Part shown: positions 15,143 through 49,696 of the stretch, one piece after another
How the letters are laid out: every line of letters begins with the position of its first letter
Position numbering within the stretch: the first letter of the stretch is position 1
From: a virus
DNA length: 49,862 nucleotides
IMG/VR virus record: IMGVR_UViG_3300037156_000185
Span: 1 to 49,862 of that record
Direction: 5' to 3' (one strand)
Notes under the pieces: generated by a model
What the model was told of the DNA's origin: nothing
The model's input: only the letters and a program-made list of their open reading frames with translations
Databases searched by the model: none
Position numbers and translations under genes: made by a program

Positions 15143-15189
15143 GGCCGTAAGCCTCCGCGCGGAAAGCGCGCCACCTCTATAACACACGA

Positions 15190-15218
15190 AGGCCCCGACC
15201 GGTTGCCCGGTCGAGGCC
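15190..15218 (-). terminator. Hairpin between leftward genes, weak terminator
   Basis: A long GC-rich stem (GGCC, then GACCGG pairing with CCGGTC and GGCC, four-base loop) lies between the membrane protein and the next upstream leftward gene. On the minus strand it is followed by TTC and a loose T-rich stretch, so termination may be partial. Confidence 0.5.
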
Positions 15219-15257
15219 TCATCGCATATACTGAGGAACGTTAGGACCCAAGAGGCA

Positions 15258-17198: not shown

Positions 17199-17413
17199 TT
17201 ACACACCCTATTAATCTCGCCGTAATTTGCTGCGCTGTAATAGTCGGCGCCAACCAGCACTCGCCCTTTTTCGCGGCTTTCGACTTTGTCGATAACCATC
17301 TGCCAACCGGTGTCGGCATCGAGCAGTCGCACTTCGGCGTCCTGCGGGAACTTCAGCAACTGCGCGACCAGCGCGCCGACAGTTACAAAAAACTCCGGAC
17401 CTTCGTCAGGCAT
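17195..17413 (-). CDS. Hypothetical protein
   Basis: Seventy-two residues. 'VGALVAQLLKFPQDAEVRLLDADTGWQMVIDKV' is reminiscent of short phage proteins with 'L-x-x-L-x-x-x-P-x-D-A-x-V' in their N-terminus, which are common but uncharacterised. Coupled to both neighbours. Confidence 0.6.
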   Translation of the reverse strand: MPDEGPEFFVTVGALVAQLLKFPQDAEVRLLDADTGWQMVIDKVESREKGRVLVGADYYSAANYGEINRVCK

Positions 17414-17597
17414 TGTGAGCCTCCTTCTTGCCGTGGTGCGGCATGTATTTCGAGCGCGCTAGCTTGGAAGCCGGCAGCGGGTCGTATTGCACGCGGATCT
17501 GCGCCAATTTCAGGCGCTCGTGCAGCGCAGCCGTTTCAGCTTTCTTGGCCGCCACGCGAGCGTGGTAACGGCGAACCTGGCGTGAGGGAGTGGTCAT
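17406..17597 (-). CDS. Small basic protein, first gene after the structured leader
   Basis: Sixty-three residues from ATG 17597, with AGGAG 6 bases upstream. Basic helix ('RQVRRYHARVAAKKAETAAL'). It is the promoter-proximal coding gene of the leftward accessory operon, about 670 bases downstream of the inferred start of transcription. Confidence 0.6.
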   Translation of the reverse strand: MTTPSRQVRRYHARVAAKKAETAALHERLKLAQIRVQYDPLPASKLARSKYMPHHGKKEAHNA

Positions 17598-17636
17598 TTC
17601 GGCTCCTGGAATTTCTAGCAACTTTTTCGAAATCGG

Positions 17637-18266
17637 GGTGGCGCGATCCGTATCGTTGTGGCCGGTCGCGCCACCCTCTATCTGACAGGCCGTGGGGATT
17701 CCGCTCGGTACCGGTTGTTGACCAACGAGCCAAACGTCCCCTTTGGCTCAACCGGTCCGCCTGTCAAAAAGTTCAGCGCCGGGTTCGCCCGGAGCGGGGG
17801 TTTGTGTAAAGCGCCCCCGGCGCCTTTCCTCCCCAACAAAGCCGAGTAGGCGCAGTTGAGTAGAGGTATCGTTGCCGCGCTGGCGCGGCGAATTTGTTGC
17901 CCCGATTAACGACTCGGGGCCACGTCGGGCTACATTTTCCCGGCTTCTGGTGATTTGCCTACACCGCCTTACTGACCGATCCGGTTTCTAGCCTGTCCTT
18001 CTGACCCGACATGGGGCAGGCATAGCTTGCATTCATCCTAACCCCGGCGCCGAGACGTCGGAAAATAGTCGGGAAGCGAGAATTCGTTGCCCTGTTGGGT
18101 TTGAATCCAACGGCTCGGGCTTCCGTCTAGCCGCAGGTGGCCTTATCAACGCTCCTGCGTAGCGACCCTCCTACGGGCTATGTTTGACTGGCCTATCCGA
18201 GTTGCGCGTGCGTCCCGGTTCACATGTTCTTCAGCAGCTTCTCACCAGTCAAGGCTGCATTAGCGG
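17637..18266 (-). ncRNA. Candidate large structured RNA or structured 5' leader
   Basis: A 630-base stretch without a credible gene but with unusually dense perfect inverted repeats. They are: 17637-17646 with 17666-17675 (10 bp); 17683-17690 with 17759-17766, enclosing 17710-17717/17749-17756 and 17727-17734/17742-17749; 17874-17880 with 17883-17889; 17899-17905 with 17914-17920; 18184-18191 with 18245-18252. A leftward promoter ends just upstream (18273-18302), so the segment should be transcribed from the minus strand. I do not recognise a known class. It could be a free-standing RNA, a cis-regulatory leader, or both. Strand is inferred from the promoter. Confidence 0.5.
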
Positions 18267-18272
18267 ACCTCA

Positions 18273-18302
18273 CCTATAGTCGATCCAAATCCAGTCTGTC
18301 AA
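18273..18302 (-). promoter_or_regulatory. Leftward promoter of the accessory operon/structured RNA
   Basis: On the minus strand TTGACA (18302-18297) and TATAGG (18278-18273) are separated by 18 bases. It faces away from the rightward promoter at 18310, and the two -35 boxes form the dyad TGTCAA-N7-TTGACA. Confidence 0.7.
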
Positions 18303-18309
18303 GCTCAGG

Positions 18310-18338
18310 TTGACAAATATTTTTCGACGGTCTATATA
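18310..18338 (+). promoter_or_regulatory. Rightward promoter giving a leaderless regulator mRNA
   Basis: TTGACA (18310-18315), 17-base spacer, TATATA (18333-18338). Transcription should start near 18345, at or next to the ATG at 18346, so the regulator mRNA is probably leaderless, as for several phage repressors. Confidence 0.75.
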
Positions 18339-18345
18339 AGCGCTC

Positions 18346-18561
18346 ATGAAGACCCCCGAACAAGCTTGGGCGGATATCCGTTCCACGCAATATCTTGTCG
18401 ATATCGCCAAACGGCTGGAGATCAGCCGCGCCGCCGTCAGCGCTTGGAAGCGCGTGCCAGCTGAGCGCGTGCTGGCGCTATCGACGATCCTCGGCGTGCC
18501 GAAGGAAGCTTTGCGGCCCGACCTCTATCCACTCCCCGTTCCAGACCCCTGGAACCTCTAA
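18346..18561 (+). CDS. Cro/YdaS-like helix-turn-helix regulator
   Basis: Seventy-one residues. 'YLVDIAKRLEISRAAVSAWKR' (about 17-37) is a clear HTH of the Cro/YdaS type, followed by 'VPAERVLALSTILGVPKEALRPDLYP', typical of these proteins. It is transcribed from a strong divergent promoter and has no Shine-Dalgarno because the start codon lies at the inferred transcription start. It probably binds the dyad between the two promoters and controls the early switch; no partner repressor is visible next to it. Confidence 0.82.
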   Translation: MKTPEQAWADIRSTQYLVDIAKRLEISRAAVSAWKRVPAERVLALSTILGVPKEALRPDLYPLPVPDPWNL

Positions 18562-18574
18562 AAGGACAAAAATA

Positions 18575-19390
18575 ATGCCCCCCACCAAAACCCCGACCTG
18601 GGCGACTGAATTCGCGCAGTTCCTGCTCGACAGCGTCAAAGTGCCCTACGAAAGCCTAGCGCAGCATTTCCGCGATAGCGATTGGAAGTACCGCCTATTG
18701 CAGAAGAACGTCACACCGACGCCCGACGGCTCGATCCTAGTCGACACCGAAATCCACATCGGGCGGACCGCCGATCGCCTGGAATTCTTCGACACCGTAA
18801 CGCTGCGCCTGCCGCCGGGGCCCGGACCGGTCACGCTGGTGACGCGTGTGCAACTCGAGCAGTCGCTGCTCGCCGTGGTCTTCGGGCGTTTCCCGCCGCA
18901 GATCATTGCTGCGCCCACCGCTAACGCCGTACCGCCTCCAGGCGTCGGGCAGATGAACGGTGGCGATGCCCGACACGTCAATATGGGCGACGCCGATGTC
19001 GTGCTGCCCGGCGAAGATGGTGGGGAGTACGTCAAGGACGACGCGCCGGTGGTGAATGTCATCCTCAAACGCGAGCCGGACGGCCTGCCGATCTTCGTCG
19101 ATCTCTACGCTCTCGGTGAGGAGGATGGCTCGACTGGTGCTATCATCGATTCGGTGCTCGCCGAGGTCGATAGCTTTCTGAAGCTCGCCTCCTCGGTTGA
19201 GCAGATCAACGCCCTGGCGATCAAGAACCCCGACATGAAGGCTTTCCTCAAAGATCTGGGCGATGATCGCGATCGCGCTGAATTGCGCTCCATGGTCGAG
19301 GCCCGTATGCGCGAACTCACCGTCCCCGCCGCCGCGGCTGCGGCCGTCAACGCGCCACGGCGCCGGGTACGCGCCCCGCAGACCAACTAA
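18575..19390 (+). CDS. Hypothetical early protein
   Basis: A 271-residue protein from ATG 18575, with AAAGGAC 6-12 bases upstream. Three regions are visible: an alpha/beta N-terminal part (about 1-115), a Pro/Gly-rich middle containing 'NGGDARHVNMGDADVVLPGED', and a helical C-terminal part ('AELRSMVEARMREL') with an Ala-rich basic tail. No family is recognised. Second gene after the HTH regulator. Confidence 0.65.
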   Translation: MPPTKTPTWATEFAQFLLDSVKVPYESLAQHFRDSDWKYRLLQKNVTPTPDGSILVDTEIHIGRTADRLEFFDTVTLRLPPGPGPVTLVTRVQLEQSLLAVVFGRFPPQIIAAPTANAVPPPGVGQMNGGDARHVNMGDADVVLPGEDGGEYVKDDAPVVNVILKREPDGLPIFVDLYALGEEDGSTGAIIDSVLAEVDSFLKLASSVEQINALAIKNPDMKAFLKDLGDDRDRAELRSMVEARMRELTVPAAAAAAVNAPRRRVRAPQTN

Positions 19391-29525: not shown

Positions 29526-29783
29526 TCAGAGAGACGGTTTCCAGCCGGACGCCTTCAGCTCATCGCCTAGCAGCGGTTCAAAGGCTTTTGCAGCGATAGG
29601 TGCCCAGGTTTTGAAGCGGGTGGCTTCGTCGCCTTGCGTTTTGCACCGGTCGCAGAAGCCGGAGGTAAACCCGTCGGCGGTTGTGCCTAGCCACGTGGCG
29701 GGTTTGCCGCACTCGTGGTTAAAGCTGCCATAGTTGGCGTTATGGCACTTGCCGTCGGTGGCGTAAGAATTGATGGCGGTCAT
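29526..29783 (-). CDS. Small zinc-binding protein
   Basis: Eighty-five residues with GAAAGGAACC upstream. Cys/His residues in 'GKCHNANYGSFNHECGKPA' and 'GFCDRCKTQGDEATRF' could form one or two zinc sites. First gene of the long leftward accessory operon, directly behind its promoter. Confidence 0.65.
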   Translation of the reverse strand: MTAINSYATDGKCHNANYGSFNHECGKPATWLGTTADGFTSGFCDRCKTQGDEATRFKTWAPIAAKAFEPLLGDELKASGWKPSL

Positions 29784-29813
29784 TTTCGGTTCCTTTCATT
29801 TCTCTATGACCTG

Positions 29814-29842
29814 ACTATTTCATGGTGTCAGAGTGGTGTCAA
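29814..29842 (-). promoter_or_regulatory. Leftward promoter of the accessory operon with GTGTCA repeats
   Basis: On the minus strand TTGACA (29842-29837), 17-base spacer, AATAGT (29819-29814). GTGTCA occurs at 29825-29830 and 29836-29841, 11 bases apart on one DNA face, resembling the site at 25010. Confidence 0.65.
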
Positions 29843-29928
29843 ATGCTAAATAGCACCCCCACTAAAATAGTTTGGCGCCGGATCGTCAGGGCTGGCGCGG
29901 CTAGGGGATTGCGAGCGCTGGCGGCGGC

Positions 29929-30552
29929 GTGGTAAACGCGAGGCGATACCAACGCTACGGCAAGGTTTATAGGTTCAAGGTGCTAGCTGAAACCACCCGG
30001 CCAACTCCGGTTGATGTGCTCGATCATACAGACGGGCTTGACGGGCTCACCTCGCGCCAGCAACTATTTGTTTCGCTTTGCTTCTCCGGGTTGACGGATA
30101 CCGAAGCATATCGCCAGGCGGGCGACTGCAGTCGTATGAGCGAAGCGACTATAGGTCGGCATGCGTATGACATGGCACACTTGCCTAGAGTTCAGGCAAA
30201 GCTACGCCAGTTGCAAGATAAGAGGGACCAGCAGTCAACGCTTGCCGCCAATCTAACAAGAGATTGGATAACTAAAAGGATAATGTATCTCGCCGACAAT
30301 TCTGACAAAGACAGTGTAAAGCTTGCCAGTCTCATAGCGCTCGGAAAACACGTTGGCATTGATCTTTTCCGTGAGACCACACGCGTCGAGCGCGTCGAAA
30401 GAACGCCCGAAGATATTGATAGGGAGCTCGAAGCGCAGCTCAAGAGTCTTGCCAATACTATCGAAGGTTCCGCTCGAGCGATCGTCACCAAGCCGTTCAC
30501 GCCAGCGCCTTCGGCGGATGCACGTTCGCGTCGCAAACACAAGCCCGCTTAA
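29929..30552 (+). CDS. terS: Terminase small subunit
   Basis: A 207-residue protein, start GTG 29929 with a weak ribosome-binding signal. 'LTSRQQLFVSLCFSGLTDTEAYRQAG' followed by 'IGRHAYDMAHLPRVQAKLRQLQDKRD' is the pattern of small terminase proteins: an N-terminal HTH that binds the packaging site, then a coiled coil for oligomerisation. It recognises phage DNA and activates the large subunit, here 2.8 kb downstream with six small genes in between. Confidence 0.8.
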   Translation: MVNARRYQRYGKVYRFKVLAETTRPTPVDVLDHTDGLDGLTSRQQLFVSLCFSGLTDTEAYRQAGDCSRMSEATIGRHAYDMAHLPRVQAKLRQLQDKRDQQSTLAANLTRDWITKRIMYLADNSDKDSVKLASLIALGKHVGIDLFRETTRVERVERTPEDIDRELEAQLKSLANTIEGSARAIVTKPFTPAPSADARSRRKHKPA

Positions 30553-30559
30553 TAGCGAA

Positions 30560-30612
30560 CGGACTGTTCACTGATAGCGAACAGTGCCATGTTGGCGGAG
30601 GTAGTGTCCGCC
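30560..30612 (+). terminator. Two hairpins after the small terminase gene
   Basis: ACTGTTC-N9-GAACAGT and GGCGGA-N7-TCCGCC lie back to back after the terS stop. No T-tract follows, so they may be weak terminators or packaging-related structure. Confidence 0.4.
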
Positions 30613-30666
30613 GAGCCTCGGCCGTAAGTCCTTGTCAGTTATAGCTGTTATCGCGGCGCTAGATTA

Positions 30667-30690
30667 TCAGCCCCACATTCAGCCCCACAT
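30667..30690 (+). repeat. Tandem 12-base direct repeat
   Basis: TCAGCCCCACAT is repeated exactly twice without spacer in the gap after terS. Such repeats near terminase genes can be binding sites of the small subunit; no direct evidence. Confidence 0.7.
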
Positions 30691-30723
30691 CCCCTCGGTG
30701 AATGGCCAACCTATCGATTGTTC

Positions 30724-30752
30724 TTGACAGTTCCCGGCGCATGCTTAATAGT
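30724..30752 (+). promoter_or_regulatory. Rightward promoter of structural region
   Basis: TTGACA (30724-30729), 17-base spacer, AATAGT (30747-30752), the same -10 as the promoter at 29814. The next gene starts at 30781 behind GAAAGGAC. Confidence 0.6.
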
Positions 30753-30780
30753 GGGGGTGTTAATTGAAAGGACAAACCAA

Positions 30781-31008
30781 ATGGCCATCCACCTCGCTAC
30801 CGCAACCTACCAGCCGGCTTACGGCAGCCCTGTCGCTGCCTACATCGCGCCGTACCAGACCACGCGCCGCGGCCAGCGCGTCACAGCCTACCGCTGGCAC
30901 GCTGAAGGCGGACAGCATGTCGGCTACCTGCCGTTCGCTACAGTCGAGCGCGGCATGCGCGCCGTCGCTACTGATCACCGCTTCACCAACGTTGCGCTGG
31001 CGGAGTGA
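30781..31008 (+). CDS. Hypothetical protein
   Basis: Seventy-five residues, rich in Ala, Tyr and Arg ('YIAPYQTTRRGQRVTAYRWH'). Located behind its own promoter and followed by a hairpin, so it may be a single-gene unit. No family is recognised. Confidence 0.6.
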   Translation: MAIHLATATYQPAYGSPVAAYIAPYQTTRRGQRVTAYRWHAEGGQHVGYLPFATVERGMRAVATDHRFTNVALAE

Positions 31009-31392
31009 TCGCCGGCGGATGGTCAGCCCAGATGATTAGGGCGTGACCATCCAAGGCTGCATGCGTGAGGCGCTGAGGTGGATGCTGTTGACCTTGGTGT
31101 TTCATGCGTGATGGTGTGGGTTGGAGCATGTGCGGCGCGGCGCTCGAGGCTGTTGGCGATTCGGCGATCGGCTGGCGCTGGCGGATTGGCGCGTGTGGCC
31201 GGATGGGTGGCGGGGTGGCGCCCCACCGCGGGCTGAGCGGGACTCCAGCTATAGATTAGGACTAGCCTTGTTCGTCGCGCTCTCACCTAAAAGCTATATT
31301 TTTCAGAAAATAAAAACCAAAACCGGACCGGCTTGCCGCAGTCCCCTCCCCCGCGCTAACCTGACCTCCGCCAACCCAGGAGCGCCCAGTCA
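31009..31392 (+). other. Noncoding stretch with one hairpin
   Basis: A 384-base gap. A perfect 9-bp inverted repeat (GGATGGTCA at 31017-31025 with TGACCATCC at 31044-31052) follows the previous stop and may terminate it. A short AT-rich run lies at about 31285-31320. I see no convincing gene on either strand. Confidence 0.5.
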
Positions 31393-31647
31393 ATGACCCT
31401 CAATGTCGTCCAGTTGCACGAAGATCCGACTCTCATCAACGATATTCCTAATCAGCTCCGCAATCTCGCCGATCGCCTGGAGGCCGGCGAAGAAACCGCC
31501 GATGCTGTCCTGGTGATCGTCGCCGGCGCCGACAACGAGTGGCCGACGATGCACAACTGGGGCGGCTATCTGCGGAACCGCGAACTGATCGGACTGCTCG
31601 AGATCGCCAAAGCGCACACCTTCAACGTCATGAGCGCGCCCGAATGA
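31393..31647 (+). CDS. Hypothetical protein
   Basis: Eighty-four residues. 'PNQLRNLADRLEAGEETADAVLVIVAG' and 'REL IGLLEIAKAHTFN' give an alpha/beta pattern common in small phage proteins near terminase. No family name is known to me. Stop overlaps the next start. Confidence 0.65.
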   Translation: MTLNVVQLHEDPTLINDIPNQLRNLADRLEAGEETADAVLVIVAGADNEWPTMHNWGGYLRNRELIGLLEIAKAHTFNVMSAPE

Positions 31648-48621: not shown

Positions 48622-48824
48622 CCATGCAGATCAATGAAAAGCGCGGCTGGGGCGCTGCCGCCCCGCGCCTGCGGCTACAGCGTCCGCCGATCCCACGTTA
48701 CGGCATCTCGCCGCAGTTGGCGCCGCCTGGCCTGACCGCGCGCGATCGTGAGTGTCTCAACTCGCCGATCGTCGCGACGCCCCAGGCAGTCGTTGAAGAC
48801 GCTGACGGGGATACGCCCGACTGA
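48618..48824 (+). CDS. Pro/Arg-rich hypothetical protein
   Basis: Sixty-eight residues; GTG 48618 overlaps the previous stop, ATG 48624 is the alternative. Pro/Arg-rich ('RLRLQRPPIPRYGISPQLAP') with an acidic end. The endonuclease gene starts at its last base. Confidence 0.55.
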   Translation: MTMQINEKRGWGAAAPRLRLQRPPIPRYGISPQLAPPGLTARDRECLNSPIVATPQAVVEDADGDTPD

Positions 48825-49696
48825 TGGGCGGTACAGCGATAAGCGCGATTGTCTACCAGGCCACCAATCAGGTGAATGGGCATCGCTATATCGGCTTTAC
48901 AACACAGGGCTTGGCCGTGCGTGAAGCGCAGCATCGTAAGGACGCGCGCAGTAAAAAGGCTGGGTTTCGCTTTCACCACGCCATGCGCAAGTATGGGCAG
49001 GAGAATTTCGTATTTGAGGTGCTCTTCGATTTTCTTGACGATGAGGAGCTGGCCAAGGTCTACGAATGGGAGATGATCTCCAAACACAAGCCGGAATATA
49101 ACCTGACAGCGGGGGGTGATGGCGGGTCGCTGCACCCCGAGACTCGCGCTAAGATTAGCGCAGCTACGATGGGTCGGCCTGGTTCACACACCGGTAAAAA
49201 ATTCAGCGCCGAAACGCGCAAGAAGATGGGCGATGTTCAGCGTGGACGACCGTCGAAATTGAAGGGCCGAACAGTTTCGGAGGAAGTCCGACGCAAGATG
49301 AGCGCGGGCCAGATGGGGCATCCTGGCTGGAATAAGGGCGGCACGATAAGCGAAGAAACTAAGCGTAAAATTAGCGAAGGGCATAAAGGGCAAATACCCT
49401 GGATCCTCGGTAAAACGCATAGCGATGAAACTAAGCAGAAAATCGGCGCCGCGCTGAAACAGGCTTTTGCTACGCCTTCCGAAAAACGTATCGCATCATT
49501 AGCTAACAATGTTCTCACCGCGATAGCGGCTAATAAAGTACCCGTAAAGTGTATTACAGACGGGCATATTTTCAATAGCTCAGCTGATGCAGACCGGTTC
49601 TATGGTTTTTGTCTTGGGTCAGTTCGTAAGGTAGTATCGGGAAAAAGAGAGCATACCCGCGGGCTAGTATTTATACGTTGTGAGGATGTCAAATGA
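48824..49696 (+). CDS. GIY-YIG homing endonuclease with NUMOD3 repeats
   Basis: A 290-residue protein. GIY-YIG domain at about 8-95: 'AIVYQATNQVNGHRYIGFTT' (the two Tyr motifs), 'MRKYGQENFVFEVL' and the catalytic Glu in 'YEWEMISKHKPEYNLTAGGDG'. Then four or five NUMOD3 units ('HPETRAKISAATMGRPG', 'SAETRKKMGDVQRGRPS', 'SEEVRRKMSAGQMGHPG', 'SEETKRKISEGHKG', 'SDETKQKIGAALKQA'). Finally a NUMOD1-like HTH ('SADADRFYGFCLGSVRKV'). It is inserted between virion genes without disrupting either, coupled to both by short overlaps. Confidence 0.93.
   Translation: MGGTAISAIVYQATNQVNGHRYIGFTTQGLAVREAQHRKDARSKKAGFRFHHAMRKYGQENFVFEVLFDFLDDEELAKVYEWEMISKHKPEYNLTAGGDGGSLHPETRAKISAATMGRPGSHTGKKFSAETRKKMGDVQRGRPSKLKGRTVSEEVRRKMSAGQMGHPGWNKGGTISEETKRKISEGHKGQIPWILGKTHSDETKQKIGAALKQAFATPSEKRIASLANNVLTAIAANKVPVKCITDGHIFNSSADADRFYGFCLGSVRKVVSGKREHTRGLVFIRCEDVK

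Follow-up and report, generated by a model that had tools for sequence, protein, structure and literature searches.

The interval from 17622 to 18345 of the virus record IMGVR_UViG_3300037156_000185, which was taken whole as the window (49,862 bases), may well be a structured cis-acting leader of an early leftward operon of the P_L type, and we favour this reading, tentatively, together with the mechanism that we propose for it below. The gene-free stretch is probably, to judge from its sequence, the long untranslated front of the early leftward mRNA. The window encodes an A-family DNA polymerase, a primase, a helicase, a DUF2800 nuclease and a terminase; among the best named relatives of the terminase are those of Pelagibacter phages HTVC027P and HTVC023P (42-47% identity). 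The sole homologue that we found of the region is in the virus contig IMGVR_UViG_3300002307_002699 (L090), in which gene order is conserved, the DUF2800 protein is 89% identical, and the Cro-like and first-ORF proteins are 70% identical to those of the window. The comparison thus rests on n=2 sequences, both metagenomic. The features are as follows.

17406 to 17597, minus strand: first gene of the leftward operon, encoding a 63-aa basic protein (70% identical in L090)
17636 to 17676, minus strand: 3′ hairpin of 11 bp, a bulged A, 3 bp and a 12-nt loop with CAACGA (z −5.3)
17680 to 17865, minus strand: middle part of the leader (z −2.3; no sequence similarity to L090)
17866 to 17929, minus strand: conserved core (53/60 identical to L090, 0/400 shuffles as good; z −3.6)
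17930 to 18266, minus strand: 5′ part of the leader, variable, structure not beyond chance (z +1.45; no L090 similarity)
18273 to 18302, minus strand: leftward promoter TTGACA-18-TATAGG, conserved in L090
18297 to 18315, no strand assigned: operator-like palindrome TGTCAA-N7-TTGACA, read from the sequence and overlapping the −35 box of each divergent promoter
18346 to 18561, plus strand: divergent Cro/YdaS-like regulator gene (PHROG 35 repressor; Pfam YdaS_toxin PF15943)

The first-pass annotation had placed a gene-free stretch at 17637-18266. These coordinates are correct and the stretch is real: all six frames from 17622 to 18345 lack a coding signal, with codon-usage scores that are low or broken by stops, and the equivalent gap in the relative (L090:3123-3673) is likewise non-coding in six frames by the same scores. 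The gene-free interval is bounded by a leftward gene starting at 17597 and by the rightward Cro/YdaS-like gene at 18346, and neither Rfam nor ARAGORN gave a match between these positions. The cumulative GC skew of the window has its minimum near 18-20 kb; near its maximum, upstream of the terminase region, is a long low-coding stretch (29701-31470). Elsewhere in the window we observed a 14-bp terminator-like hairpin with a weak T tail within the leftward operon (15189-15220, minus strand) and, at the end of the record, a GIY-YIG-type homing endonuclease gene (48824-49696).

Local alignment of the window with L090 revealed three conserved islands, namely the promoter, the core and the stretch from the 3′ hairpin to the start codon, each unmatched in 400 shuffles. 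The remainder has diverged: the 5′ and middle parts show no detectable similarity (361 and 346 of 400 shuffles, respectively, are as good), and the leader measures about 630 nt in the window against about 425 nt in L090. Searches of phage and plasmid records gave no convincing homologue, and searches with neighbouring genes found the region only in L090, the L091 contig ending before it. Other viral-contig matches in a pattern scan were coding-looking or due to chance, leaving only the L090 contig as real, and among the matches listed from a pattern scan of bacterial genomes most were in-frame GNEF codons or chance. When Cro loci, terminase relatives and 385 genomes belonging to one class were searched with a covariance model of the core, all matches were weak; the top-scoring one (33 bits, G172) corresponds to a GC-rich repeat preceding a trpD-like gene.

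The good leftward promoter described by the first-pass annotation is borne out by its conservation. Its counterpart in L090 is TTGACA-18-TATAAG, with 25 of 32 bases identical to the window's, a score that none of 400 shuffles equalled. The promoter stands back-to-back with that of the Cro/YdaS-like gene, and a Cro-like protein or repressor would be expected, from the sequence, to bind the palindrome between them; at the equivalent place L090 has TTTCAA-N7-TTGAAA, with the same 6-N7-6 geometry and different half-sites. The rightward promoter (TTGACA-17-TATATA, 18310-18346) ends 7 nt upstream of the Cro-like start codon, so that the Cro-like mRNA may be leaderless.

We compared the structure of the region with that expected by chance. 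Perfect stems of at least 7 bp number 15, against 11.6±3.5 in dinucleotide shuffles (61 of 300 shuffles reach 15), and the sole class above chance consists of stems spanning at most 120 nt (8 against 3.5±1.8; 8 of 300 shuffles). Hence, of the 630 hairpin-dense bases originally claimed, the local stems stand and the density over the whole length does not; for the most part, "630 nt of dense structure" is to be expected of GC-rich DNA. Folding of the whole region on the leftward strand is modestly better than shuffled (z −1.7 to −2.2), and the opposite strand folds at least as well (z −2.5 to −3.6). In L090, the leftward strand is the better of the two (z −2.3 vs −0.4 for the complement). Shuffled-control folding, by which the candidate RNA was to be judged, divides the leftward strand of the window: the 5′ half is no better than shuffled (18265-17930, z +1.45; 5′ half of L090, z +0.25), and the core (17929-17866, z −3.6) and 3′ hairpin (17679-17630, z −5.3) are better, as is the middle part (17865-17680, z −2.3). 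The sequences support a non-coding RNA, partly structured and running leftward from a good promoter, in that promoter and core are conserved, and the 3′ hairpin covaries, in one related phage.

The 3′ hairpin has the form GGGTGGCGCGA-CCG-[GCCACAACGATA]-CGG-A-TCGCGCCACCC in the window and GGGCGGCAGA-CGG-[TTCCAACGACG]-CCG-A-TCTGCCGCCC in L090 (L090:3598-3635). Between the two phages its stem has three two-sided changes (T-A to C-G, C-G to A-T and C-G to G-C), with one pair missing and none broken, and both phages retain the bulged A and CAACGA; the changes were counted by eye, MAFFT having misaligned the two arms. The covariation check in one related phage thus yielded compensatory changes in this hairpin and none elsewhere, and with only two sequences the support from covariation is thin. 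A descriptor scan of 1.35 Mb containing 2128 CAACRA sites found the hairpin shape only at the two homologous places. Downstream of the hairpin, the first gene of the leftward operon begins after 38 nt in both phages. Such a stable hairpin of 10-11 bp just upstream of the first gene, with stem letters that vary while pairing is kept, could be simply an RNase III site, an mRNA stabiliser or a translation barrier that has no dedicated protein partner, in which case the core would be a separate signal. We consider this unlikely, since pairing alone does not require the CAACGA loop motif and bulged A to be kept, or the core to be preserved nearly letter for letter.

The core is an approximately 60-nt two-hairpin element with GGCAACRA motifs, in the order hairpin GCCCCGA/TCGGGGC, AACAAATTC, hairpin GCCGCG/CGCGGC and AACGA. 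A further GGCAACGAATTC motif is found in the 5′ part (18084-18091), behind a hairpin at 18080-18121. The core model detected no second copy within the window, and the idea of tandem domains (three CAACGA at a spacing of about 215 nt) was rejected, the units being no more alike than shuffles. Because the core stems are letter-identical in both phages they show no covariation, and the letters themselves appear to be under constraint. The stems are also perfect palindromes, so the conserved palindromes might work as DNA, as operator, initiator or replication-origin sites beside the divergent promoters. The nearby GC skew minimum and the lack of preference for the leftward strand in the folding of the window would agree with this. 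However, the compensatory changes in the 3′ hairpin, with bulge and loop kept, argue for a folded strand, as does the strand preference in L090, and we regard a role as DNA sites as quite improbable.

The size of the region had further suggested a giant phage RNA of the GOLLD or ROOL class, a proposal that our searches leave unsupported. The suggested Rfam scan was negative: covariance models for GOLLD, ROOL, raiA and tmRNA gave nothing at gathering score in the whole window and nothing at E up to 10 in 17400-18600 or L090, and ARAGORN found no tmRNA in the window. The region resembles GOLLD and ROOL RNAs in being phage-encoded, non-coding and hundreds of nucleotides long, with its own promoter, conserved core and 3′ elements and variable intervening parts, but differs from them in matching neither family model, in being much less structured, in lacking a terminator and in its promoter-proximal position in an early operon. 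Furthermore, its length is not conserved, its 5′ half is neither conserved nor structured beyond chance in the two phages, and covariation, which in that class would back an extensive structure over the whole RNA, is here confined to the 3′ hairpin (n=2 sequences). The middle part has a long hairpin in the window (17771-17679; TTGACAGGC/GCCTGTCAG). In its place L090 carries, between the core and the 3′ hairpin, a tRNA-like element that lacks the T-arm (L090:3440-3495; loop UUGCGGA; 28.3 bits against an Rfam tRNA cut-off of 29, E 0.00088), for which a search of 385 genomes gave no matching source tRNA. GOLLD linkers at times contain phage tRNAs (PMC12286853), and vibriophage ICP1 makes an abundant non-coding transcript of ~800 nt, whose size was likened to GOLLD and ROOL (PMC7567579). 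Owing to these three observations, we still allow a very small probability to a free-standing large structured RNA like GOLLD or ROOL, which would accumulate in infection, perhaps self-assemble, and accommodate an insert resembling a tRNA within a variable linker. It is just as improbable that the region represents a large phage RNA of a new class, apart from these two, with the two-hairpin GGCAACRA core, the conserved 3′ hairpin and a variable linker able to host a T-armless tRNA-like element.

No U-tract that would make the 3′ hairpin an intrinsic terminator follows it (the next letters are CGATTTCGAAAAAG in the window and CGAAACTCAAAAAA in L090), and a terminator scan did not list it. The transcript therefore probably continues into the operon. 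The 63-aa protein encoded next has 14 R+K against 4 D+E and a helix predicted at residues 6-32; no known antiterminator or family was matched in Pfam, PHROGs or PDB. The lack of a U-tract, together with a conserved next gene for a basic protein with a helical N-terminus, makes a cis-acting leader the best fit. In L090 the counterpart of this gene (L090:3674-3856) contains one in-frame TAG, yet its final 13 residues match those of the window exactly; almost all other aligned L090 genes are free of stops.

The elements of the favoured cis-acting leader are read from the sequence: a promoter and a core that are both conserved, a regulator gene on the other side of the promoter, a 3′ hairpin that covaries, and the conserved gene of the basic protein. 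RNA polymerase would start near 18266 when the Cro/YdaS-like regulator permits, and the leader would be transcribed, whereupon the core and 3′ hairpin, both displaying CAACRA motifs, would fold. A protein would then bind the folded elements, the 63-aa basic protein being the most likely candidate, and this binding would control either how the operon is translated or how RNA polymerase behaves, much as lambda N acts via its nutL leader. The remainder of the leader would be a fast-evolving spacer. Possibly, by analogy with lambda N, the operon is autoregulated by this downstream protein. Early leftward transcripts of phage HK022 carry the put RNA, which likewise consists of two adjacent hairpins and which works in cis on RNA polymerase at both P_L and P_R; unlike put, the core described here is some 345 nt away from the predicted transcript start (170 nt in L090) and has no rightward copy.

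The nutL site of lambda is located about 200 bp upstream of N, and the RNA separating the two is highly structured; together with Nus factors, N represses the translation of its own mRNA (PMC5725501). The window shares with the lambda P_L leader an early leftward promoter facing a Cro-type gene, a long structured leader with hairpin elements, and a first gene whose product is small and basic, with an N-terminal basic helix (here predicted). In contrast to lambda, the leader is longer, boxA is not conserved, the rightward transcript has no copy of the core, and the 63-aa protein is not detectably related to N. Among four forms of boxA (the NusB/NusE site), the best window match was 9/11, equalled in 12 of 300 shuffles and without an L090 counterpart. 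A hairpin with a conserved loop is present that might be a counterpart of boxB, and binding of protein to it is what we propose. The likeness to lambda N is thus one of analogy, not membership. Against the leader reading stand the unconserved boxA, the lack of an antiterminator match for the basic protein, the TAG in the L090 frame, and the equally good folding of the opposite strand. As the operon seems short, antitermination may be unneeded.

In place of the giant RNA originally claimed, these results leave two short elements that can be tested and a single candidate for the protein partner. Should the proposed binding be true, it would represent N-like control lacking a recognisable boxA, and we found no record of such control in this phage group.
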